This document shows, piece by piece, positions 4,563 through 46,200 of a stretch of 64,000 nucleotides of DNA (position 1 is the stretch's first letter; every line of letters starts with the position of its first letter). The stretch spans positions 4,180,001 to 4,244,000 of the forward strand of contig NZ_CP119968.1 in NCBI RefSeq assembly GCF_032163395.1, in the 5' to 3' direction. This DNA is from Gloeocapsopsis dulcis (GTDB lineage: Bacteria; Cyanobacteriota; Cyanobacteriia; Cyanobacteriales; Chroococcidiopsidaceae). The position numbers and the translations under genes are program-made. Below the pieces are notes generated by a model. The model worked only from the letters and a program-made list of their open reading frames with translations, made no database searches and had not been told where the DNA came from.

Positions 4563-5294
4563 TTAATACTCGCGGTTAGCCATTGCTGCTTGACGTGTTG
4601 CGGCAACGAATGCTTCAAAAATACGATGTTGTAAAGGATCAATACTACTTGAAAGTTCAGGATGCCATTGTAGTGCGATCGCCCAAGGGTGATATTTGTG
4701 TTCGAGTGCTTCAATCACTCCATCTGCTGCCCATCCGGTAACGCGCCATTCTGGAGATACAGTACGTACAGCTTGATGATGCCAGGAAATAACATCAACC
4801 GCGATCGCGCCGATAACTTCTTGTACAAGACGACTATCGGGAATAAGATCTACTGAATGTTGAATTGATAGTAATTGTTCAGCGCGATGCGTCACCACTT
4901 CACCGTATTCATCAGGAAGATGGGGAATTAATGTTCCACCAGTTGCAACTGCAAGTACTTCTAAACCACGACAAATACCGAGTATAGGAATATCAGAGGT
5001 TAAAGCGACTTGCGCTAAAGCAATTTCGGCGTGATCGCGTTCGGGATCGACGTTATAAATTGTCGGATGCATTGCACCATTGTAAATTGCTGGGTCAATG
5101 TCTCCCCCACCGGAGAAAATCAATCCATCAATCCTTTGCAAAATAACATGACTTGCTTCTGGTTCACCTGGAGGAATTAACAGTACTACTCCACCAGCAG
5201 CTTTAACAGCTGCTACATAAGAACTAGGTAGGCAATAACTACTAGTGTGAGCGTGACCAGAGGTTGTGATACCAATAATGGGAGGCTGCATCAT
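4563..5294 (-). CDS. Gamma-glutamyl-gamma-aminobutyrate hydrolase family (peptidase C26, PuuD-like)
   Basis: 243 residues with the class I glutamine amidotransferase fold: nucleophile Cys in PILGICRGLEVLAV, the oxyanion segment FSGGGDIDP, and the catalytic His/Glu in ALQWHPELSS. PuuD-type enzymes hydrolyse gamma-glutamyl amide bonds, for example gamma-Glu-GABA in putrescine breakdown. It starts 9 bp after the glutamine synthetase-like gene, and such pairs normally form ligase/hydrolase partners. The substrate is therefore probably a gamma-glutamylated amine made by, or derived from the product of, the upstream enzyme. Confidence 0.88.
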   Translation of the reverse strand: MMQPPIIGITTSGHAHTSSYCLPSSYVAAVKAAGGVVLLIPPGEPEASHVILQRIDGLIFSGGGDIDPAIYNGAMHPTIYNVDPERDHAEIALAQVALTSDIPILGICRGLEVLAVATGGTLIPHLPDEYGEVVTHRAEQLLSIQHSVDLIPDSRLVQEVIGAIAVDVISWHHQAVRTVSPEWRVTGWAADGVIEALEHKYHPWAIALQWHPELSSSIDPLQHRIFEAFVAATRQAAMANREY

Positions 5295-5303
5295 TTCCCA
5301 AGT

Positions 5304-6644
5304 TTAGCAGTTGACATACTGCTCGACTTCCCAGATTGTCACTTGCGCATTGTAACTATTCCACTCCTGGTATTTGAAGTCGAGGAAGGTTTTTGCGGCT
5401 TGTTCTCCTAAAGTTTGCATCAGTAAAGCATCTTTTTCTAAACATTGCAGTGCTTCGAGTAAACTTGTCGGCAGTGTTTGCAAGTCTGAAAATTCTAAAC
5501 CCCGAACAAACATATTTTCATCCAAGCGTTTCCCTGCTGTAAGATGTTTTGCCATCCCTTCTATTCCTGCTGCTAAGATTCCAGCTAAAGCAAGATAAAG
5601 GTTTGCTGCACCATCGACAAGACGACATTCAAAGCGCCCACCTTCGGGAATGCGAATCATGTGTGTACGATTGTTTCCACCGTAGGAAATATAGCGAGGA
5701 CTCCAAGTGCTACCCGATGCAGTTGTTATCGCACCAATGCGGCGGTATGAATTGATTGTCGGGCTACAGAGTGCGGCTAATCCACGACTATGCGACAGAA
5801 CACCAGCTAGAAATTCGTAGGCTATGTTTGATAGTCCCATTTCTTCGCTGACGTCGGCAAAGATATTTTGACCATCATTCCACAAACTCATATGAATGTG
5901 TGCGCCGTTTCCAGTCAGCTGGCTAAATGGTTTGGGCATGAATGTGGCAGTTAAACCGCGTTGTTCTGCTAAAGTTTTGACCATGTACTTAAAAAACACA
6001 TGGCGATCGCACGTCGTCAATGCATCACTATAAGTCCAGTTGATTTCAAATTGACCATTCGCATCTTCATGGTCGCACTGATAAGGTTCCCAGCCTAATT
6101 CTTCCATGTATCCCACGAGTGTGGAGATTAATTCAAATTGCCGCATCAAGTTCAACTGATCGTAGCAAGGGCGTGCGGCGGTATCTTGAGGATCAGCAAT
6201 TTGATAACCTTGTTCGCTCTTTTTAAGTAAGAAAAATTCAGCCTCAACTCCGGTTTTGTAGCTATAACCCAAGTTTTCACACTGTTGCAATACTTTTTTG
6301 AAAATCACGCGCGGCGATGCAGCAAACGGTTCGCCATCTAAATACACATCACTTGCCAACCAACCCACATTTGGTTGCCACGGTAGCACGATCAGCGAAT
6401 TGGGATCGGGTACAGCAGCAATATCATGGGCATCAGGACCTAACCCCAGATTACTGGCAAATGGCGCAAAGCAAGCTCCATCGATTTCTACTGCTGTCAT
6501 TTTTGCAGCAGGAACGAGCTTAGCACGGGTTCCTCCCAACAAGTCAGTATAAGATACAAGAAAAAAATCGAGTTGCAATTCTTTGGCTAACTCGGCTAGG
6601 GCTTTGCCTCGTGTCAAGGTTGTCGTCACTGCCGTACTCCCCAT
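5304..6644 (-). CDS. Glutamine synthetase family, type III (GlnT / gamma-glutamylmethylamide synthetase-like)
   Basis: 446 residues, with the GS beta-grasp N domain (LVSYTDLLGGTRAKLVPAAK) and the catalytic domain (KTGVEAEFFLL, GQFEINW, GNGAHIHMSLW, NSYRRI, NRTHMIRIP). The short length and the FFLVSYTDLLGG start resemble the type III/GlnT group, which also contains gamma-glutamylmethylamide synthetase; PuuA-like ligases are another possibility. It would ligate glutamate with ammonia or a small amine using ATP. A GGAG box lies 8 nt before the ATG. The promoter carries an NtcA-like site and a degenerate copy of the GntR operator found at 40.8-44.9 kb. The substrate is not decided by sequence. 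Confidence 0.88.
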   Translation of the reverse strand: MGSTAVTTTLTRGKALAELAKELQLDFFLVSYTDLLGGTRAKLVPAAKMTAVEIDGACFAPFASNLGLGPDAHDIAAVPDPNSLIVLPWQPNVGWLASDVYLDGEPFAASPRVIFKKVLQQCENLGYSYKTGVEAEFFLLKKSEQGYQIADPQDTAARPCYDQLNLMRQFELISTLVGYMEELGWEPYQCDHEDANGQFEINWTYSDALTTCDRHVFFKYMVKTLAEQRGLTATFMPKPFSQLTGNGAHIHMSLWNDGQNIFADVSEEMGLSNIAYEFLAGVLSHSRGLAALCSPTINSYRRIGAITTASGSTWSPRYISYGGNNRTHMIRIPEGGRFECRLVDGAANLYLALAGILAAGIEGMAKHLTAGKRLDENMFVRGLEFSDLQTLPTSLLEALQCLEKDALLMQTLGEQAAKTFLDFKYQEWNSYNAQVTIWEVEQYVNC

Positions 6645-6668
6645 TGCTCTGTCTCCGAGTAAACCAAA

Positions 6669-6684
6669 CTTGTTATGACAGATT
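6669..6684. promoter_or_regulatory. Candidate GntR-family operator, degenerate copy, before the GS-like gene
   Basis: ACTTGTTATGACAGAT matches the perfect 16-mer ACTTGTTATAACAAGT at 44920-44935 at 13 of 16 positions. It begins 25 bp upstream of the GS-like start codon. The left half is perfect, the right half weaker. Confidence 0.45.
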
Positions 6685-6686
6685 TG

Positions 6687-6700
6687 TAGCAGGAGATACG
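6687..6700. promoter_or_regulatory. Candidate NtcA site (GTAN8TAC) before the GS-like gene
   Basis: GTAGCAGGAGATAC fits GTA-N8-TAC exactly and lies 3 bp beyond the operator-like sequence. With only six fixed bases such matches arise by chance about every 4 kb, so the call depends on its position before a nitrogen-assimilation gene. Confidence 0.4.
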
Positions 6701-9554: not shown

Positions 9555-9972
9555 AAATCAGATGGATTTTATTATTGTAGCCTTTAAGTTATATTTTCTG
9601 ATTTTGTTAATTAAATTCATTACATTTTTTGCCACTAATTTAATTAGTTAATCAACAAAAATAATCTCAATAACTTTTGAATGGTACACCAGTATTTGAT
9701 AAGCATTGAGTAATTTATTACTAATTTTAAATTAGCTAACTAAAAAAGGATTTTAAAACCATCATTATTTCATCGATAATTCCGAATCAGAAGCAAAACT
9801 TTAATTAATTTTTTTTCAAAAATATCAAAAACAAATTTGCAATATAAAGCAGAGTATAACACTTCTAGTTATACCAATTTGAAAAAAGGTTGCGACAAAT
9901 CATGATTCTCTAATTTTTTCTCTCCCCCAGCTCACTCATATGCAGCAACCTTAAGGCAACATAGTATTAACC
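9555..9972. other. AT-rich intergenic region within the PAP gene cluster
   Basis: 418 bp with long A/T runs and no credible coding frame. It separates the ferredoxin gene from the downstream hypothetical and kinase genes, so those two may have their own promoter. No clear terminator hairpin is visible. Confidence 0.6.
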
Positions 9973-10299
9973 CTAGTAAAGTTCAAACAACTCATCTTCC
10001 TGGTGAGTTTGGATGACGCAATCAGACATAGGATAAGCTCTACAAGTGAGTGCAAATCCAGCCTTAAGTTCTTTTTCTTTTAGGAAAGAATGATCGGATT
10101 GGTCAACTGAACCTTCTATAATCCTGCCAGTACAAACAACGCAAGCACCTGCACGGCAAGCATAGGGTAGTTCGACATTCTGCTCCTCAGCAGCATCAAG
10201 AATGTACTCGTTCTCACAAACTTCAATCGTAGTTTTTAATCTTTTTGCTTCGTTAACTAACGTAACTTTGTAAGTTTTGTCACCTTTTCTATTAAACAT
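9973..10299 (-). CDS. Plant-type [2Fe-2S] ferredoxin (slr0150-like)
   Basis: 108 residues. The cluster motif is CRAGACVVC (C-x4-C-x2-C) with the fourth Cys in FALTCRAYP, as in PetF-type ferredoxins. The acidic C-terminus ([10 protein letters not shown]) is typical of a photosynthetic electron donor. The Shine-Dalgarno AAGGAAG precedes the ATG by about 5 nt. It is part of the PAP-type operon, where it presumably supplies electrons for a photosystem assembly or repair step; the partner is unknown. Confidence 0.92.
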
Positions 10300-10354
10300 T
10301 TTTGCTTCCTTATGTAGTTATATTTTGCAATTAGCATCAACAATCAAAATAAAT

Positions 10355-11119
10355 TCAAGAAAATAAATACTTAACTGCTGCTTGTTGAGGAACTTCAGTT
10401 GTGGGTTGCACACTCAACTCGTGAATCTTCTTGCTCAGATCCCTTGCGGTGTGATAGTTAGCAATATCCGCTTCTTCAAAAAAGTATTTTGCAGCTTCGC
10501 GCAAATCTGTAACTGCTCCCTTTTTATCTCCTAGGTCAGCACGAATAAGCCCGCGATTGTGATAGGCTTGGGCATAGCTAGGATTGTTACGAATAGCTTC
10601 AGTGTAGTCTCCAATCGCCCCCTGCTTATCTCCTAAGCATTGATAGACAACACCTCGGTTGTAGTAAGCTTCGGCATACTGAGGATTGATACGAACAGTC
10701 TGGGTGTAAGTCTCAATCTTTTGCAAGTAATCTACTAGCTCTGCAATTTTTGTCTGCTCGTTATTAAGGCTCTTGCTGTAATCCTGTAGATTATTCATAT
10801 CTTGACCCAAGGTAGTGGTTAGTTGCTTTACCTGTGCTACTTGCTCAGTTAGCATCTCAAATTTAGTCTGGGTTTCAATTTTTTCTTGTACACTCTGGGC
10901 GATCGCAGTTTGATGACTCTGCTGGATGCCATCAATAAGCTGTTTGCGGTTGACGAGATTTAGCGCCACGGCTAATGATAGTGGAATAGAGGCAAATGCA
11001 ACTTGTTGGGAAACTACACATACAAGTGAACCGCCAATAGAACCAAGCACCGACAGAGTTTCTGCAATTTCTAACCAATGGGAATTTTTAATATTTGATG
11101 GAATTAAACGTCTTTGCAT
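10355..11119 (-). CDS. Membrane-anchored TPR protein (slr0151-like)
   Basis: 254 residues. The N-terminus has two short hydrophobic stretches (LSVLGSIGGSLVCVVSQQ, VAFASIPLSLAVAL) giving a membrane hairpin. Residues about 65-140 are coiled-coil (QEKIETQTKFEMLTEQVAQV). Two to three TPR motifs follow (AEAYYNRGVVYQCLGDKQGA, AQAYHNRGLIRADLGDKKGA). This layout matches the TPR member of the cyanobacterial PAP operon, linked in Synechocystis to PSII repair. Compared with my recollection of Synechocystis, this gene and the following ferredoxin are in swapped order. Confidence 0.8.
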   Translation of the reverse strand: MQRRLIPSNIKNSHWLEIAETLSVLGSIGGSLVCVVSQQVAFASIPLSLAVALNLVNRKQLIDGIQQSHQTAIAQSVQEKIETQTKFEMLTEQVAQVKQLTTTLGQDMNNLQDYSKSLNNEQTKIAELVDYLQKIETYTQTVRINPQYAEAYYNRGVVYQCLGDKQGAIGDYTEAIRNNPSYAQAYHNRGLIRADLGDKKGAVTDLREAAKYFFEEADIANYHTARDLSKKIHELSVQPTTEVPQQAAVKYLFS

Positions 11120-18831: not shown

Positions 18832-19078
18832 GATTTTGTTAGACAAAGATATAGGAAAGGCAGATAAAAGCTAATAACACCGCACTCGTTCAAATTAAGT
18901 TATTGCAAGAACTGGTGTTGCTAGTGCATCTTTGCAGTAATCAGCTAAAAAAGCAGTGCGATCGCCATTTCTTGTCCACAATACCGGTAAGTTAGCTGAA
19001 ATTTGGCAGCGCTGGATTCCTGAAAAAGAATTCCCCATACAATTTTGAGTAGATACTAATGCACTAAGGGCGATCGCG

Positions 19079-34263: not shown

Positions 34264-34773
34264 CTATCCCTTTTCTGAGTTCACTAGTTTAGCTCTGATC
34301 ACTGGAGCATCACGAGCAGCCGTATGCAACTCTAAGATAGCTTTTCCTAATGGTGAATGATGCCAAATCAGGACAGAAATACTGTTGATACGGGCAGGTA
34401 CAGCGCAATTTAGTGTTAGTCCTTGTAATCGATGTGGTGGTTTTGTGGTAGCAATTTGGCGTAATTTTAGCTTGAATGAGTGGGGAAGTGCGATCGCTTT
34501 TATCGTCTCACAGCGTTTTACCCAAACACGCATTTTGGCAGGAGCTTGTATTGCAAAATTGCCTTGAATTCCCAAGCGGAAATTATTTTCGCACAGCCAC
34601 AATAAGGAACACGGATAATCAGCAACAGTTGCTTCCAGCGATTGAAAAGGCGCAAGTTTACCCGCAGCATCACCTACCAATATTTTGGCAAATTGTAAGC
34701 CATCAACACCCGCAAAATCCCATAATTGATAGTTTGGTAGGTCAATGGTCGCAAACAAGAGAACTGCATGCAA
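34264..34773 (-). CDS. Hypothetical protein
   Basis: 169 residues beginning MHAVLLFATIDLPNYQLWDF. The DNA shows normal codon use and a continuous frame without recognised domain motifs. It contains several short beta-prone segments and a Cys-containing block YPCSLLWLCENNFRLGIQ. It starts 3 bp after the true stop of the broken Uma2 gene, so both may be one transcript. I do not recognise the family, and it could also be a chance frame. Confidence 0.45.
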   Translation of the reverse strand: MHAVLLFATIDLPNYQLWDFAGVDGLQFAKILVGDAAGKLAPFQSLEATVADYPCSLLWLCENNFRLGIQGNFAIQAPAKMRVWVKRCETIKAIALPHSFKLKLRQIATTKPPHRLQGLTLNCAVPARINSISVLIWHHSPLGKAILELHTAARDAPVIRAKLVNSEKG

Positions 34774-35333: not shown

Positions 35334-35688
35334 TGCCCAAGTTCCTTTGTAGTATCACACCCGCACTCGTATTTTATCGGGATCGTAAGCCGCTATGCGC
35401 CCTACAGTTGCTTTGACACAACGAATTTTACCATCAACTAAACCAACTTCGAGTTCAGTAGCAATCCCTGCATATTCTGGGGCAATCTGCGCTAATGGGG
35501 CGCACCTGGCGGTTGGGGAAGTACACGTTATGACTGAAAGCCTATTTCTGGAAAAAAGCTTAAAGGAAAGGTATAAATGAAATCGAGCTTTCATTATAAA
35601 GATAGTTCTTCACTAGCTATAGGAGTACTAGATATCAAGGGATTGTTTGCCTCGCTCAAGATGCATTTCCGAACCAACATCGGCTCAG

Positions 35689-39340: not shown

Positions 39341-40756
39341 TTATTCTTGCATTCCAGGTTGTGGATCTAATCTACCTGCTATTATTTCGCTACGTTGTTG
39401 TGCATTAACAGCTGATGTTGCCCAATTCATGCTGTATTCGGGATAGCCTTCGACGCCTAAATCTGCAACGTCTAATCCAGCAATTTCTTCATCACGTGGT
39501 ACGCGCAAGAGATTAAATTTCTTGAGTAACCAACTTGTCCCATACCCTGGAATAAACCCTAAGATAATCACGCAAACCAAGGTAGGAACTAATTGCCCGA
39601 TAAATCCAGTTAAAGGTACGCCTTCACCTTGAGGATAACCTGTTGCTAATACTCCAACTGCCAAACTTCCTAATAAACCACAAAAACCATGAACGCCAAA
39701 TGCACCTACAGCATCGTCAATACCAATTTTTTCAATCAATAAAGCAACTTTCGGCATTAAGAAAGCACCAAAGAAAGCTAAGACTACCACAACAGTTGGA
39801 TGATATAAATCCATTCCTGCACCAACTGAAATAATACCTGCTAGTCCTCCAGAAATTGTGAAAAATGGGTCAGCTTTAGAGGAAATATAAGCACCAATAA
39901 TTCCAGATGCTAATGCAAGGGTTGTATTAACTCCAATCGAAGCTAAAGTCATTGGAGTTCCGTAAATTGTTGTTTCTCTGGTATAGCCTGGTAGGAAAAT
40001 TACACACGCTGCTAAAAACGCATAAAAGCCAACAAAAATCAGCATTAAACCTACCATTGTTAACGGTAGATTGTGTGGTAAAATTGGTCTGGGATTACCT
40101 CTTTCATCGTACTTACCAATGCGAGGACCAAGGTTAATTAATACACCTAAAGCGAAGAAACCAGAAACACCGTGAACAACTGCTGAACAGCCAAAATCGT
40201 GATAGCCAAATGCAGTATAAAACCAGCCAAAAGGGTTCCATCCCCATGCTGCTGCAACGACCCAAGTGAATGAACCGAGAACAATTGATAAGATAATATA
40301 TGCACCAATTTTAACGCGCTCTATTAAGGCTCCTGAAAGAATTGAAGCTGTGGTCATTGCAAATAGTGCAAAGGCAAAAAAGAAAACTCCAGTTAAATGA
40401 TCGGCAGTGTTTGGTGCTAAGGCAGGAGACCAAGGATAAGATGTTTCTACTACCGCCATTGCGGCTGTTACGGTTTCATTTGTTGCAGGATTCGTCCAGG
40501 GACCAAGTATTCCGCCGCTAACAGGAAATAGGGGAAAAGCGTTATAAACCCACCAACCAAAGAAGAAAAATGCGAGTCCTACACTTGAGAGGGTAAGAAG
40601 GTTTTTTACCATTGTGGCAAGGACATTTTTTGTGCGCGATGCACCACCTTCGTAGGCAAGAAAACCCACATGAATTAATAACATGAATACAGAGGCGTAG
40701 AAGTAGTAGCTCTCTGAAATGAAGATTCCTAAAAATTCTTGTGCTTCAGCATTCAT
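39341..40756 (-). CDS. amt: Ammonium (methylammonium) transporter, Amt family
   Basis: 471 residues with about 11 membrane helices and no cleavable signal peptide. Family features are GWGWNPFGWFYTAF-like loops, the conserved DFGCSAVVHGVSGFFALGVL block with the first pore His, FGVHGFCGLLGSLAVGVLAT with the second, and a long cytoplasmic tail. Amt proteins move ammonium and also methylammonium. The gene is divergent in subfamily from the usual Amt1 by the region ARTTRNV-like start (EGGASRTKNVLATMVKNLLT). The promoter carries an NtcA-type site and a degenerate GntR operator, so both nitrogen limitation and an amine-type signal may control it. Confidence 0.92.
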   Translation of the reverse strand: MNAEAQEFLGIFISESYYFYASVFMLLIHVGFLAYEGGASRTKNVLATMVKNLLTLSSVGLAFFFFGWWVYNAFPLFPVSGGILGPWTNPATNETVTAAMAVVETSYPWSPALAPNTADHLTGVFFFAFALFAMTTASILSGALIERVKIGAYIILSIVLGSFTWVVAAAWGWNPFGWFYTAFGYHDFGCSAVVHGVSGFFALGVLINLGPRIGKYDERGNPRPILPHNLPLTMVGLMLIFVGFYAFLAACVIFLPGYTRETTIYGTPMTLASIGVNTTLALASGIIGAYISSKADPFFTISGGLAGIISVGAGMDLYHPTVVVVLAFFGAFLMPKVALLIEKIGIDDAVGAFGVHGFCGLLGSLAVGVLATGYPQGEGVPLTGFIGQLVPTLVCVIILGFIPGYGTSWLLKKFNLLRVPRDEEIAGLDVADLGVEGYPEYSMNWATSAVNAQQRSEIIAGRLDPQPGMQE

Positions 40757-40790
40757 GGGTAATGCTTAATAAGTTCATACTTGCGATAGA

Positions 40791-40805
40791 TTTGTTATTA
40801 CAAGT
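40791..40805. promoter_or_regulatory. Candidate GntR operator, degenerate copy, before amt
   Basis: TTTGTTATTACAAGT matches the core palindrome CTTGTTATAACAAG at 12 of 14 positions and lies 35-49 bp upstream of the amt start codon. Confidence 0.5.
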
Positions 40806-40830: not shown

Positions 40831-40844
40831 GTAACTAGTGTTAC
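40831..40844. promoter_or_regulatory. Candidate NtcA site (GTAN8TAC) before amt
   Basis: GTAACTAGTGTTAC fits GTA-N8-TAC exactly and is nearly palindromic. It lies about 75 bp upstream of the start codon, a location consistent with NtcA-activated ammonium transporter promoters. Confidence 0.5.
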
Positions 40845-40901: not shown

Positions 40902-42212
40902 TTACTGCCCCACGATAAAATCTGTACCTGCGAGTGGTAATTTTGCCATTGCGGAAGCTTCGAGGGTGAGTGCGACTAAGTCTTCGCGTTCGAGGTTGTG
41001 GACGTCGGATTTACCGCAAGCACGGGCTAAGCTTTGCACTTCCATGACTAGGGATTGCAAGTAATTTGCAACGTAGGTTGTTGCTTCGTCGATTGGTAGC
41101 CTTTGCATTAATTCTGCATCCTGGGTGGTGATACCTACAGGACACATTCCGGTATGACAGTGATGACAGTGATAAGGTTCAGTACCGAGTTTGTGGTAAT
41201 CTTCTATGTAAACAGGTTTGTTGCACCCCATGGCAATTAGAGTTGCAGTACCTAAACTGACAGCATCTGCACCTAATGCTAAAGCTTTAGCAACATCAGG
41301 TCCTGAACGAATACCACCAGAAATGATTAGCTGTACTTCTCCATAAACGCCGATTTCTTGTAAAGCTTCTACCGCTTGCACAAGTGCGGGAAGCGTGGGG
41401 ATTCCAGCATGTTCTTGAAAAATACTTTGTGTCGCAGCGGTTCCGCCTTCCATGCCATCAAGGACGATCGCATCTGCACCAGCTTTGACGGCAAGTTTGA
41501 CGTCATCTTTAACGCGGGTAGCACCCATTTTGACGTAAATTGGAATTTCCCAGTCAGTTGCTTCGCGCAATTCTTCTATCTTTATTTTTAAGTCATCAGG
41601 ACCAATCCAATCAGGGTGACGACACGGCGATCGCTGATCGACTCCTTCGGGTAACGTCCGCATTCCAGCGACGACTTTATTAACTTTTTGCCCTAGTAAT
41701 AAGCCACCACCACCAGGTTTTGCACCTTGCCCGACAACAATTTCAATTGCATCAGCTTTTTTCAAATCAGTTGGGTTAAAGCCATAGCGGGAAGGGAGAC
41801 ACTGATAAACCAACTTGGAAGATGCTTCGCGTTCAGCAGGTAACATCCCACCATCACCTGTTGTTGTTGAGGTTCCCAGGAGTGTTGCAGCGCGCCCTAG
41901 GGCAACTTTGGCATTGTAAGACAGTGCGCCGAAACTCATTCCTGCAACTGTAATTGGAATTTTTAACTCCATCGGGCGTTTAGCATGGCGCGTACCTATG
42001 AATGTTTTCGTGGTGCATTTCTCGCGGTAGCCTTCGAGGGGAAGTCGCGTTAGGGAAGTTGTCAGAAAAACGAGATCGTCAAATCGTGGCACATTACGCA
42101 ACGCCCCATAACCGCGAATCATATAGCGCCCTAATTCTGCACGTTCTTGAATTGCGGCGATCGCTTCGGGTGTGTATGTACTACTTGTTTTTAATACTTG
42201 TTTGCTATCCAT
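40902..42212 (-). CDS. FMN-binding glutamate synthase family protein (MgsC/GlxD-type)
   Basis: 436 residues, equivalent to the central and FMN domains of the glutamate synthase large subunit as a separate protein. It has FDDLVFLTTSLTRLPLEGYR, the FMN region ISGGIRSGPDVAKALALGAD, AVSLGTATLIAMGC and the [3Fe-4S] cysteines in CHHCHTGMCPVGITTQD. In methylotrophs the corresponding subunit makes N-methylglutamate from glutamate and methylamine (MgsC); in rhizobia it is GlxD. It is the third gene of a three-gene set, 28 bp after the GXGXG gene. The length matches MgsC. Confidence 0.88.
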   Translation of the reverse strand: MDSKQVLKTSSTYTPEAIAAIQERAELGRYMIRGYGALRNVPRFDDLVFLTTSLTRLPLEGYREKCTTKTFIGTRHAKRPMELKIPITVAGMSFGALSYNAKVALGRAATLLGTSTTTGDGGMLPAEREASSKLVYQCLPSRYGFNPTDLKKADAIEIVVGQGAKPGGGGLLLGQKVNKVVAGMRTLPEGVDQRSPCRHPDWIGPDDLKIKIEELREATDWEIPIYVKMGATRVKDDVKLAVKAGADAIVLDGMEGGTAATQSIFQEHAGIPTLPALVQAVEALQEIGVYGEVQLIISGGIRSGPDVAKALALGADAVSLGTATLIAMGCNKPVYIEDYHKLGTEPYHCHHCHTGMCPVGITTQDAELMQRLPIDEATTYVANYLQSLVMEVQSLARACGKSDVHNLEREDLVALTLEASAMAKLPLAGTDFIVGQ

Positions 42213-42240: not shown

Positions 42241-42936
42241 CTAATAATTCGCCCAGTCTTTCGCTTTGAAGTGATACAGTTGTTTAGCACAGATGACTTT
42301 TTTAAAGTTGTAGTCTTTGGCACTTATATTGAGTGCAGCTAGTTCGTGTTCTAAGAATTGCCAATCAGCATCAGACATCGGTTCAAGTTTGGCGTCTGCA
42401 CCCAGTGAGTTGATTTCTCCACCGACAAAAATTGTACCTTCGTAGATCGAATCTGCTAAATTAGCTCCGGCGTTGCCACAAACAATCATGCATCCTTGCT
42501 GCATCATAAATGCTGAACTGTAGCCGACATTGCCAGTCACGATTAATGTTGCGCCTTTAAGCGAAATTCCTGCACGCGATCCTGCGTTACCGAGAATGCA
42601 AATTTTCCCTCCGTGGGCAGATGCGGCGGCGTTGGCCGAGGCATTGCCGTGAATGGTGATGTTACCACTCATCAAATTTTCGCCTACTGACCAGCCACAG
42701 TCACCGAAAACTTCGATATTGATATTGTCGCTTAAACCCCCACAGTAGTATCCTACGGGTCCTGCGATTGAGATAGCAATTTGGGTGATGCCGACGGCGA
42801 GGTTATGTCTTCCTGCGGGGTTGAGGAGTTTTGTGGGGATACTTTCGGATGCTAGGGCTTTGAGTTTTTGATTGATTTCGCGGGTGGTGAGGTTTGCGCA
42901 GTCGATAAGGGTTTGTTGGGGAACTGTTTGGTGCAT
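42241..42936 (-). CDS. GXGXG-motif protein (MgsB/GlxC-type)
   Basis: 231 residues corresponding to the C-terminal right-handed helix domain of glutamate synthase as a free subunit. It starts LIDCANLTTREINQKLKALA and carries repeats rich in G (VFGDCGWSVGENLMSGNITI, HGNASANAAASAHGGKICIL, GNAGSRAGISLKGATLIVTG, GNVGYSSAFMMQQGCMIVCG). It acts as a structural subunit with the FMN subunit. It lies between the amidotransferase and FMN genes, in the same order as mgsABC/glxBCD. Confidence 0.9.
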   Translation of the reverse strand: MHQTVPQQTLIDCANLTTREINQKLKALASESIPTKLLNPAGRHNLAVGITQIAISIAGPVGYYCGGLSDNINIEVFGDCGWSVGENLMSGNITIHGNASANAAASAHGGKICILGNAGSRAGISLKGATLIVTGNVGYSSAFMMQQGCMIVCGNAGANLADSIYEGTIFVGGEINSLGADAKLEPMSDADWQFLEHELAALNISAKDYNFKKVICAKQLYHFKAKDWANY

Positions 42937-42998: not shown

Positions 42999-43937
42999 TT
43001 AGACGAGTTCTAGGTGTGGGCTGGGTTTATTAGTGGTTGACCAAATTTTGATTTCTCCGGCGTCGGGTTCGGAGATTTTGGCGTTGGGGTTGTAGTGGGG
43101 AAGGTTGAGGAAGCAGCGGTATTCGGAGGCGATCGCAATCATTTCTGGGGTTTCGTAAATTGCTGCTGGTTTGGCGGCGAATTTGTCGCGGACGAGTGCA
43201 ATTTTGTCTGGGGTGGCGACGAGAAATGTGTATGTGCCGTCGATATCGTTGAGGAGATTTTGGAGGGCTTGTTCTAAGGAGAAGCCTTGGAGGAGTTGAT
43301 AGCGGATGTAGTGGGCGATCGCTTCGGAATCGTTGTCGGTTTCAAATGCAATGCCTTTCTTTTCTAGAGAAAATCGCAGTTTGTAGTAATTGGAAATTTG
43401 ACCATTGTGTACAAGGCATAAATCTGGTGCTGAGGTGAAGGGATGTGAATGATAGGTATCTACAACAGATTCTGTTGCCATGCGGGTGTGTCCAATTCCA
43501 TGACTTCCTGCAAAGCCTTTTAATTGATATCTTTGAAATAAATTTTCCGCTGTGCCAACTTCTTTATAAATTTCTAATAGCTGTCCAATACTCATTAAAT
43601 GTATTTGGGGAAATTGAGTAGCTAGGTGTTGCTTAAATTCTGCTAAATCTAAAGTTTTATTACTTGTGTCTAAAATGATCCGTCTACCACTACCAATAAC
43701 ATCAAATTTAATAACTCTAGCTTGACTGTGTAACCAGCTTTTTACTTCTTCCCAAGCTGCTTGTTCAGCAGCAAATAATAGGAGTTTTATATTATGTGGA
43801 ACTGAATTACTATAAATTCCTACCCCACACGAATCAGGTCCTCGTGTTTCTAGTGGCTGAATTAATTGCAGTAAATCGATACCTAAGTTTTTGTATAGCT
43901 CAGATTTTCGATAAATAATTCCTGCTATACCACACAC
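42999..43937 (-). CDS. Class II glutamine amidotransferase (MgsA/GlxB-type)
   Basis: 312 residues. Its mature N-terminus MCGIAGIIY supplies the nucleophile Cys2, with the GATase II blocks GIGHTRMATESVVDTYHSHP, LVHNGQISNYYKLR and FETDNDSEAIAHYI. It would produce ammonia for the FMN subunit, or in the N-methylglutamate synthase act as a remodelled subunit that does not use glutamine. It is the first gene of the trio, with a perfect 16-bp GntR operator 87-102 bp upstream. The length matches MgsA (about 300). Confidence 0.9.
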   Translation of the reverse strand: MCGIAGIIYRKSELYKNLGIDLLQLIQPLETRGPDSCGVGIYSNSVPHNIKLLLFAAEQAAWEEVKSWLHSQARVIKFDVIGSGRRIILDTSNKTLDLAEFKQHLATQFPQIHLMSIGQLLEIYKEVGTAENLFQRYQLKGFAGSHGIGHTRMATESVVDTYHSHPFTSAPDLCLVHNGQISNYYKLRFSLEKKGIAFETDNDSEAIAHYIRYQLLQGFSLEQALQNLLNDIDGTYTFLVATPDKIALVRDKFAAKPAAIYETPEMIAIASEYRCFLNLPHYNPNAKISEPDAGEIKIWSTTNKPSPHLELV

Positions 43938-44023: not shown

Positions 44024-44039
44024 TCTTGTTATAACAAGA
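44024..44039. promoter_or_regulatory. GntR operator, perfect palindrome, before the amidotransferase operon
   Basis: TCTTGTTATAACAAGA is a perfect 16-bp palindrome. It shares the 14-bp core CTTGTTATAACAAG with the site at 44919-44936, and the core has the G-T...A-C spacing seen in HutC-type operators. It lies between the GntR gene and the amidotransferase operon. Confidence 0.75.
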
Positions 44040-44091: not shown

Positions 44092-44883
44092 TTAAATAGT
44101 AGTATTTTGCTTGGTCAACGTTACTGAGTAACATAATGTGTCTGCACGAGAAAGCGTCTCACCACAAATGACAGGTTTTTCTCCTGTTGTATAAGCAATG
44201 TAGCTATTTACAAGTAATGGTGCGCCCAGGGGAATATCTAGATAGTCGCTGACTTCATGGGGCGCATGGGTGCATTCAATGATTGTTTCTACATGTTCAA
44301 TTGAGACACCATTACTATCGAGTGTCGGATAAATTAAGCTTGATTGTAGTTCTGTTGCAAATGTCTTACCTAAATCGAAGGGAATGTAAGTAATGTCTAC
44401 TGCAACAGGAATTTGATCGGTGAGAATGACTTTTTTCTGACAGTAAACTTGTAGTGTACCATCATCTAGCTGTAACTGCTTACACACCTTGGGTGAAGGT
44501 ACGACTGTTTCAAAGCTGAGGCTACGAATGCTGGCGGTAGAACCTTGTCGCGCCATGTCTTCATCAAAAAAGATCAGAGGGTTAGAAAGGGAACGCGTGA
44601 CTTTTTTGCGATCTTTGACAAAGACACCCTTACCGCGATGCGAAATGACTAGCCCTTGATTAACGAGATTGGCGATCGCTCGTCGTACTGTAATCCGACT
44701 AACGTTAAACTGCAACATCAACTGATGTTCGCTAGGAAGTTGCTCTCCTGGAGAGTAGTCACTACTATAAATTTGCTCGCGTAGCTTTTCTGAAATTGCT
44801 AAGTGTAAAGGAAGTTTAGAATTAACTGCTACTGGCGATGTCATTGAAAATATCCGAGAGCCTCTATTTATTGATTGTGTCAT
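44092..44883 (-). CDS. GntR family regulator, HutC subfamily (UTRA domain)
   Basis: 263 residues, or 249 if M15 is the start. The winged HTH is LREQIYSSDYSPGEQLPSEH, QLMLQFNVSRITVRRAIANL and HRGKGVFVKDRK. The C-terminal UTRA domain (about 95-250; IRSLSFETVVPSPKVCKQL, ECTHAPHEVSDYLDIPLGAP) binds a small effector. It is most likely the repressor acting on the two perfect CTTGTTATAACAAG palindromes flanking it and on the degenerate copies before amt and the GS-like gene. The effector may be an amine or a glutamyl-amine. Confidence 0.9.
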   Translation of the reverse strand: MTQSINRGSRIFSMTSPVAVNSKLPLHLAISEKLREQIYSSDYSPGEQLPSEHQLMLQFNVSRITVRRAIANLVNQGLVISHRGKGVFVKDRKKVTRSLSNPLIFFDEDMARQGSTASIRSLSFETVVPSPKVCKQLQLDDGTLQVYCQKKVILTDQIPVAVDITYIPFDLGKTFATELQSSLIYPTLDSNGVSIEHVETIIECTHAPHEVSDYLDIPLGAPLLVNSYIAYTTGEKPVICGETLSRADTLCYSVTLTKQNTTI

Positions 44884-44918: not shown

Positions 44919-44936
44919 TACTTGTTATAACAAGTA
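44919..44936. promoter_or_regulatory. GntR operator, perfect 18-bp palindrome, in the divergent promoter
   Basis: TACTTGTTATAACAAGTA is perfectly symmetrical. It lies between the divergent GntR gene and FAD oxidoreductase gene, so the regulator can control itself and the oxidoreductase. Confidence 0.8.
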
Positions 44937-45003: not shown

Positions 45004-46200
45004 ATGGTTGAGACAGCAGATGTTGTTGTAGTGGGGGGAGGTTGTATTGGTGCATCTATTGCGTTGCATTTAGCTCAAAATCAAGCTGGAAAGGTGGTGC
45101 TGCTAGAACAAAAGGAACTGGCAAATGGTGCATCGGGTAAAGGTATTGGTATTATTCGCACACACTATACGCACCCTGTTTTAGCAGAGTTAGCATATCT
45201 ATCTCAACAACGATTCCACAATTTTAAACAACTTTTTGGTGGATACGAGAGTGGTTTTGATCCTTGTGGATACTACGTTTTAGTCGGAAATGCAGATGTA
45301 GCAACTCTCAAGGCTGTTGTGCAAATGCATCAATCAATGAAAATTAACGTAGATTTGATTGATTTAGCAGAAGTTCAAGCTAGAGTTCCTCACCTCAATC
45401 TTGATGATGTTGCCGCTGCTGCTTATGAACCATTTTCAGGTTATGGTAGCCCGCCACAAACAACGCTAGCTTTTGCACAACGTGCTGTAGATTTAGGAGT
45501 AGAAGTTCTCACACAAACACCTGTTCAAGATATTGAGTTGGATGCAGTAGGAATTCACGGTGTCGTTACAAGTAAGGGTGCGATCGCCACGCGCACTGTT
45601 GTTGATTGTGTTGGTCCTTGGGCAAGAAAACTTACTCAAAGCTTAGGCTTAGATTTTCCTGTTAATCCTGTTGTGGAACACGTTGTTGTCGTAGAAAGAC
45701 CCTTGGAATTTTCGCATCACCCTGTTGTTTCTGACTTAGTGAATCTCTGCTACTCACGCTCAGATCCGCATCAACCTTATACGCGAATTGGTAATTCTGA
45801 TCCTAAATATCATTCGCAATTTATGTTACAAGATGCTGATGACTTTCACGGACAAATTTATCCGCAAATTACTGAAGAATTGCAGCAAAAACTGATTCAG
45901 CGCTATCCAGTTCTCGAAAAAGCTAAAGTTGTTGATCAGTATTCGGGAATATGGGGCGTGACACCAGACTATCAACCGATTATTGACTATCTCAAGCACA
46001 TTCCAGGGTTATACTGTGCCGTTGGTTTTAGCGGTCATGGTTATAAACTTAGCCCCATAATTGGTGAACTGATGAGTCAATTTATCTTAGGCGATCGCTC
46101 TGTGATGGATAAATTAAAGATCTTTCGCTTCAGTCGTTTTCAAGAAGATGACTTAGTTAAATCACCTATCACTTATGGTAAAGCAAAAGGATTGCGCTAA
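45004..46200 (+). CDS. FAD-dependent amine/amino-acid oxidoreductase (DAO family, sarcosine oxidase beta-like)
   Basis: 398 residues. The FAD-binding motif is VVVVGGGCIGASIALHLAQ with the acidic residue in VVLLEQKELANGASGKGIG, and the C-terminal FAD motif is PGLYCAVGFSGHGYKLSPII. The enzyme family oxidises secondary amines such as sarcosine, glycine, D-amino acids or N-methylglutamate. It resembles the beta-type subunit of heterotetrameric sarcosine oxidase/N-methylglutamate dehydrogenase, but the other subunits are absent in this window; a PuuB-like gamma-glutamylamine oxidase is an alternative. A palindromic operator lies 68-85 bp upstream. Confidence 0.85.
   Translation: MVETADVVVVGGGCIGASIALHLAQNQAGKVVLLEQKELANGASGKGIGIIRTHYTHPVLAELAYLSQQRFHNFKQLFGGYESGFDPCGYYVLVGNADVATLKAVVQMHQSMKINVDLIDLAEVQARVPHLNLDDVAAAAYEPFSGYGSPPQTTLAFAQRAVDLGVEVLTQTPVQDIELDAVGIHGVVTSKGAIATRTVVDCVGPWARKLTQSLGLDFPVNPVVEHVVVVERPLEFSHHPVVSDLVNLCYSRSDPHQPYTRIGNSDPKYHSQFMLQDADDFHGQIYPQITEELQQKLIQRYPVLEKAKVVDQYSGIWGVTPDYQPIIDYLKHIPGLYCAVGFSGHGYKLSPIIGELMSQFILGDRSVMDKLKIFRFSRFQEDDLVKSPITYGKAKGLR

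Follow-up and report, generated by a model that had tools for sequence, protein, structure and literature searches.

Does the gene labelled as a type III glutamine synthetase (GS) in Gloeocapsopsis dulcis have a promoter in which an NtcA box is combined with an operator of a GntR-type regulator, and does it thereby belong to the same regulon as an operon 35 kb away? This had been predicted from the DNA sequence of the stretch studied here, a window of 64,000 nucleotides. The prediction that both loci belong to one regulon is supported by conservation of the site in six genomes, by a gene cluster of a distant relative, by the loss of the operator in a genome in which no such GntR was found and by a composite site shared with other genes. 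We analysed the promoter, the identity of the gene and the relatives of both, and regard the GS-like gene and the distant operon as likely parts of one regulon for nitrogen from amines.

Layout of the promoter

Read on the minus strand, the promoter consists of an NtcA-like box (GTATCTCCTGCTAC, 6699-6686), the dinucleotide AA, a predicted operator (ATCTGTCATAACAAGT, 6683-6668), the bases TTGG and a predicted -10 element (TTTACT, 6663-6658), followed by the start region (Table 1). A GTA-N8-TAC sequence followed by an operator-like sequence had been predicted, and this pair does exist, with the predicted match of 13 out of 16 positions to ACTTGTTATAACAAGT; only the coordinates had been given one base too high. 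The order of the two elements was also said to be the same as before the ammonium transporter gene amt. This is true for the order but not for the spacing, because the gap between box and operator is 2 nt at the GS-like gene (called gmaS in the following) and 25 nt at amt. One half-site of the gmaS operator (ACAGAT on the plus strand) had been described as weak. It is the half nearer to the NtcA box, and its ATCTGT is invariant in six genomes.

Table 1. Positions of promoter elements and genes in the window.
Feature	Position	Strand	Basis
NtcA-like box GTATCTCCTGCTAC, GTA-N8-TAC	6686..6699	-	pattern search; GTA/TAC invariant in six genomes
Predicted operator ATCTGTCATAACAAGT, 13/16 to ACTTGTTATAACAAGT	6668..6683	-	motif search and comparison
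Predicted -10 element TTTACT, 22 nt past the NtcA-like box	6658..6663	-	promoter comparison
gmaS, gamma-glutamylmethylamide synthetase-like (labelled type III GS)	5304..6629	-	profiles, homology, residues
Peptidase C26 of the gamma-glutamyl hydrolase type, following gmaS at a distance of 9 bp	4563..5294	-	ORF and domain
amt, ammonium transporter family	39341..40756	-	below NCBIfam cut-off, above Pfam cut-off
Operator before amt, ACTTGTAATAACAAAT	40790..40805	-	motif search
NtcA-like box before amt, 25 nt from operator	40831..40844	-	pattern search
mgsC-like, Glu_synthase domain	40902..42212	-	domain and homology
mgsB-like, GXGXG domain	42241..42936	-	domain and homology
mgsA-like, glutamine amidotransferase domain	42999..43937	-	domain and homology
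Operator before mgsA, TCTTGTTATAACAAGA	44024..44039	.	motif search
GntR/UTRA regulator, presumed owner of the operator	44092..44883	-	profile and homology
Perfect operator ACTTGTTATAACAAGT between gntR and DAO	44920..44935	.	motif search
DAO-family FAD oxidoreductase, candidate N-methylglutamate oxidase	45004..46200	+	profile; substrate inferred

NtcA-activated promoters possess a GTA-N8-TAC box with a -10 element 22 to 24 nt downstream, and the gmaS promoter has both, the latter at 22 nt. Orthologues of at least 76% identity all have TTTACT in their gmaS promoters (9 of 9), at a spacing of 22 nt (23 in genome G008). At amt no clear -10 element was visible by eye at 22 to 24 nt from the NtcA-like box, and with its gap of 25 nt the amt promoter must be built otherwise than the gmaS promoter.

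The listed open reading frame of gmaS starts with an ATG at 6644. The start is probably the GTG at 6629, because none of the other five close genomes has this ATG, all of them reading ATT, and an extra A lies between the two codon positions in G002 and G014.

Probable identity of the GS-like gene and of the amine pathway

The NCBIfam call for the protein is type III GS (589 bits, cut-off 470). Among solved structures it comes closest to 7cql (507 bits), which we take to be the Rhodovulum GmaS (RhGmaS) of the structural paper, and then to 9qur, named glutamate-methylamine ligase (357 bits). The chain numbering of 7cql fits the numbering in the accessible part of that paper with an offset of 20 (PMC7948447). 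All 15 ATP-binding, catalytic and methylamine-pocket positions given there are identical to RhGmaS, and Ala60 aligns with RhGmaS Ala48, where GS has the ammonia-binding Asp50'. Of all 18 positions compared with RhGmaS, 17 agree; position 61, at a loop end, differs. On the basis of these residues gmaS, with a predicted gamma-glutamylmethylamide synthetase activity, is a more fitting name for the "type III GS-like" gene, as it had been called, than glutamine synthetase gene. An ordinary GS was ruled out by model scores and pocket residues, and a gamma-glutamylputrescine synthetase by its model (252.7 bits, cut-off 650) and the same pocket.

On plasmids of Aquabacterium and Acidithiobacillus a gene named glnT directly precedes homologues of mgsABC. 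The identities to the Acidithiobacillus plasmid copies are 41% for GmaS, 38% for MgsA and 44% for MgsB, and MgsC reaches 65-67% to plasmid homologues (among the 15 listed of 242). Thus, all three MgsABC subunits of the N-methylglutamate pathway have their counterparts in the window. A canonical MgdC was not found in the genome at E up to 1e-20; the one match, of 27% identity to the C-terminal half, fits the glycine cleavage T protein. The DAO-family protein (DAO) is 23% identical to a sarcosine-oxidase-beta-like protein of the Acidithiobacillus plasmid. Judged on the MgdC search and the DAO comparison an MgdABCD heterotetramer was not detected, and DAO is a candidate for its replacement. The related genome G148 possesses a full-length MgdC (58% identity) 2.8 kb from mgsC.

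Single motifs and composite sites against background

In the window four operator sites with up to three mismatches were found, located before gmaS, amt, mgsA and gntR/DAO. Shuffled sequences gave a mean of 0.53, and none of 100 shuffles reached four. The GTA-N8-TAC pattern occurs nine times in the window with 10 expected, and at up to three mismatches the operator occurs at 55 places of the own genome compared to 51 for the reversed control, both of which is background. Because each box alone is at background level, only relatives could settle the question. The original prediction had warned that the site could be due to chance; this caveat holds for each box taken alone, whereas the composite of both stands out by comparison.

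A composite with the 2-nt gap, allowing two mismatches over 18 fixed bases, was found 19 times in seven related genomes and three times for the control. Sixteen of these matches sit in three orthologous promoters: six before gmaS, six before a copper amine oxidase gene and four before a second GS-like gene. The remaining three were set aside, two of them lying inside long reading frames. When 386 genomes were scanned blindly for the gap-2 composite, with a tolerance of one mismatch, six matches in three genomes were obtained, and two for the control. The gap-25 composite was not above its control in the same scan (5 versus 12 matches), so that support for this spacing comes only from loci carrying GntR. 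Eleven of the 12 control matches are from a single family (f41), and two of the five true ones are the amt promoters of G000 and G001.

In 48 loci (787 kb, counted after removal of three duplicates) the operator with no more than two mismatches occurs at 52 sites, whereas 200 scrambled palindromes gave 0.4 sites on average and at most 8. Where an NtcA-like box and an operator are paired within 150 bp of each other, the gap is exactly 2 or 25 nt in 12 out of 14 cases, and in 17 out of 22 when three mismatches are allowed. Among the gap-25 pairs, which number eight to eleven, five come from the amt promoters of near relatives and are therefore not independent.

Conservation in close genomes

GmaS (at least 80% identity) and GntR (at least 75%) co-occur in exactly the same seven of 100 genomes, the own one included. 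The original prediction was to be given up if close relatives lacked the site. Of the seven genomes, six (the own one again counted) have an intact gmaS composite. Among these six, no column varies in the NtcA core (0/6), four of eight vary in its spacer, one of 16 in the operator and none in the next 22 bases. The sole variable operator column is C or T, and the T, found in two of the six genomes, is nearer to the palindrome. Upstream of the box, 19 of 40 columns vary among the four alignable genomes; this is a gap-free recount, since a first count with gaps scored as changes had given 72 of 79. Upstream of the box the DNA of G000 and G001 has a wholly different sequence, with 8 to 11 of 40 bases in common with the other four. 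Conservation therefore begins at the NtcA box. As it extends from the operator to the start codon, it is not specific for the operator in the close genomes.

In G008 the GntR is present and the NtcA box and the -10 element are kept, the left half of the operator is degraded, and the gap-2 search of the seven genomes gave no composite match. The GntR match in G004 has a TAA at its first codon, which lies before the likely start.

GntR loci in distant relatives

The scan for the GntR yielded 39 named cyanobacterial loci. An operator with up to three mismatches is present in 29 of them, and perfect ones are found even beside orthologues of 46-51% identity; in the locus DNA examined for the other ten no such site was found. 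The palindrome is thus common to the GntR gene and its targets and recurs together with the GntR, as would be expected for its operator.

A distant parallel comes from an Oscillatoriales MAG (locus L094), where DAO, an operator, gmaS (GmaS 76% identical), gntR, another operator and mgsABC form one cluster. Both operators match 15 of 16 positions and precede gmaS and mgsA. The gmaS promoter of this cluster reads GTATCTCCAGATAC-AA-ACTTGTTATAACAAGC-TTGATTTACT, with NtcA box, operator and -10 element placed as in the window. In G148 GmaS is 77% identical, the NtcA box and TTTACT are kept and the operator is lost; a search for the GntR with E up to 1e-25 found none there.

None of 20 more distant GmaS homologues (49-54% identity) has an operator within three mismatches before its gene. 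In three loci (L108, L117, L121) gmaS (51-53%) is the third gene in a row behind a desaturase-family gene which carries the operator. Desaturase-family and MetX-like genes recur beside gntR in ten loci, these three included, with operators of 0 to 2 mismatches, and in L104, also one of the ten, a partial gmaS match follows them. Upstream of the desaturase gene two operators lie 39 bp apart in four loci (L077, L104, L108, L109), possibly as a double site.

In five further loci relatives of the GntR (41-50% identity) are located near genes for a BCCT transporter, a Rieske oxygenase and DAO. Operator-like sites lie between the BCCT and Rieske genes of these five, so that betaine or carnitine use may be under the same motif. 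In locus L079 the GntR gene of G057 is interrupted (9800-10512), and the operators there are still strong.

Other putative members of the regulon

The gap-2 composite precedes the copper amine oxidase gene in six of the seven genomes (in the own genome outside the window, at C1:3585530-3585560). It precedes the second GS-like gene in four of the seven, which are all known carriers of this gene. In G000 and G014 neither this gene nor its promoter match was found. In G057 operators precede amt, the second GS-like gene and a trimethylamine monooxygenase gene (770 bits, cut-off 675). The composite between the monooxygenase gene and its divergent neighbour faces the neighbour, a frame of 611 residues, the GcvT-like part of which resembles TMAO demethylase (433 bits for the scanned fragment, below the cut-off of 1100).

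One further site with two mismatches in the own genome lies inside a reading frame which by eye is acetyltransferase-like. Another site on the 307-kb contig C3 (G000:C3:242099-242114; 1501-1516 of locus L005) matches the operator in 14 of 16 positions about 86 nt before a frame that looks amidase-like by eye, and this gene is a possible further member.

Two further observations concern the window itself. Partial matches to a GcvT-like gene and its small partner, both longer in other GntR loci, are found at 34357-34746 and 35361-35507 and have apparently decayed. At 18986-19045 a match of 20 residues with 100% identity to the C-terminus of a solute-binding protein, encoded near gmaS in G001, points to a rearrangement between 6.7 and 19 kb.

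A proposed two-input promoter and its alternatives

The sequence comparison shows that the composite site exists, that it is conserved and goes together with GntR, and that targets are shared; binding of NtcA and GntR, activation, repression, the ligand and the substrate are inferred. In our model, to which we assign a probability of about 0.7, these genes would form an NtcA-activated, GntR-repressed regulon for obtaining nitrogen from methylamine and related amines, with gmaS behind a two-input promoter. NtcA, active in nitrogen shortage, would bind the GTA-N8-TAC box at about -41 and recruit the polymerase to the TTTACT -10 element. The HutC-type GntR would bind the palindrome between the two; as the whole operator sits in the space that separates box and -10 element, a bound repressor would exclude the polymerase. 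An amine-related ligand would release GntR, and gmaS would be on only when nitrogen is short and GntR released. The regulon would comprise uptake by Amt, GmaS, the N-methylglutamate synthase MgsABC, the oxidase DAO and the copper amine oxidase encoded elsewhere in the genome.

A mere coincidence of two weak motif-like sequences in the same promoter would agree with the background level of each motif alone. We consider it very improbable in view of the conservation, the parallel in the distant L094 and the recurrence of the composite before functionally related genes. Control by NtcA alone, with an ancestral, decaying operator-like sequence no longer usefully bound by GntR, is a rather unlikely explanation. 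In its favour, the operator in the window matches in just 13 of 16 positions, in G008 it is degraded further with the GntR still there, and in G062 and G083 the promoter of GmaS has retained an NtcA-like box but no operator. Against it speak the 15 invariant operator columns out of 16 in six genomes, when nearly half of those just upstream vary in the four that align, and the T for C in two of the six, which is nearer to the palindrome.

The regulon might also be real and serve another primary amine or amide, e.g. ethylamine, polyamines or arylamines. The C26 hydrolase encoded next to gmaS is reminiscent of PuuD from putrescine utilisation, the copper amine oxidase has the same composite, and G062 and some others possess a GntR paralogue together with BCCT and Rieske genes. 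Still, this seems unlikely to us, since the pocket residues are identical to those of the methylamine enzyme and the score of the gamma-glutamylputrescine synthetase model is far below its cut-off. The adjacency of glnT and mgsABC homologues on the two proteobacterial plasmids, and the distance of only 2.8 kb between mgsC and the full-length MgdC gene in G148 point in the same direction.

Significance and comparison with known systems

Methylated amines are common dissolved nitrogen compounds, and the users described in the literature found are heterotrophic and methylotrophic bacteria. If the model is true, a conserved, nitrogen-gated regulon would make phototrophs direct users of these compounds. 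The gmaS promoter would be a clean two-input case for study. Labels such as "type III glutamine synthetase" in cyanobacteria can mask GmaS. A paper on whole-cell biocatalysis in Synechocystis mentions the enzyme (PMC12588301). We tentatively extend the model, at somewhat less than even odds, to scattered cyanobacteria ranging from Gloeocapsopsis to Leptolyngbya- and Pleurocapsa-like ones. In these GntR and NtcA may form an AND-NOT gate with fixed spacings of 2 or 25 nt on the promoters that both act on, and the phototrophs themselves would import methylated amines and demethylate them as a nitrogen source, some of them via a short N-methylglutamate route with a single DAO replacing MgdABCD. 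In the literature searched (including what was accessible of PMC6243067, with subscription journals mostly outside) we found no account of the regulon or of a GntR-controlled amine use in cyanobacteria. The kinds of parts are known, and their combination in cyanobacteria was not found described in that literature.

The gmaS promoter resembles NtcA promoters in its box and in the -10 element at 22 nt, but differs from them by a second palindrome between the two. As this palindrome fills the space from box to -10 element, it seems that a second and specific signal acts on the promoter. With the GntR/HutC-UTRA repressors the regulator shares the HTH and UTRA domains and a palindromic operator which is also found beside its own gene. 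Its best solved relative is YvoA, with DasR further down. In contrast to these repressors, its operator is ACTTGTTATAACAAGT, paired at some promoters with NtcA-like boxes, and its targets are amine genes.

PlmA (PMC5083789) is likewise a member of the GntR family linked to cyanobacterial nitrogen control, whereas the GntR of the window has a UTRA domain and orthologues of at least 75% identity in only seven of 100 relatives. In Ruegeria pomeroyi the AraC-type TmaR activates tdm and later genes and mildly represses tmm, according to PMC13390433. As in this TmaR/TmoR control of trimethylamine use, one regulator would be in charge of methylated amine genes including gmaS-mgs, but here it would be a GntR acting with NtcA, and in cyanobacteria. 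Compared to the proteobacterial N-methylglutamate pathway (gmaS, mgsABC, mgdABCD), the GmaS ligand residues that were checked agree and the three Mgs subunits match in size and domains. The differences are that the genes of the window are spread over about 40 kb, that a single DAO is present and no canonical MgdC was found, and that the regulator is a different one.
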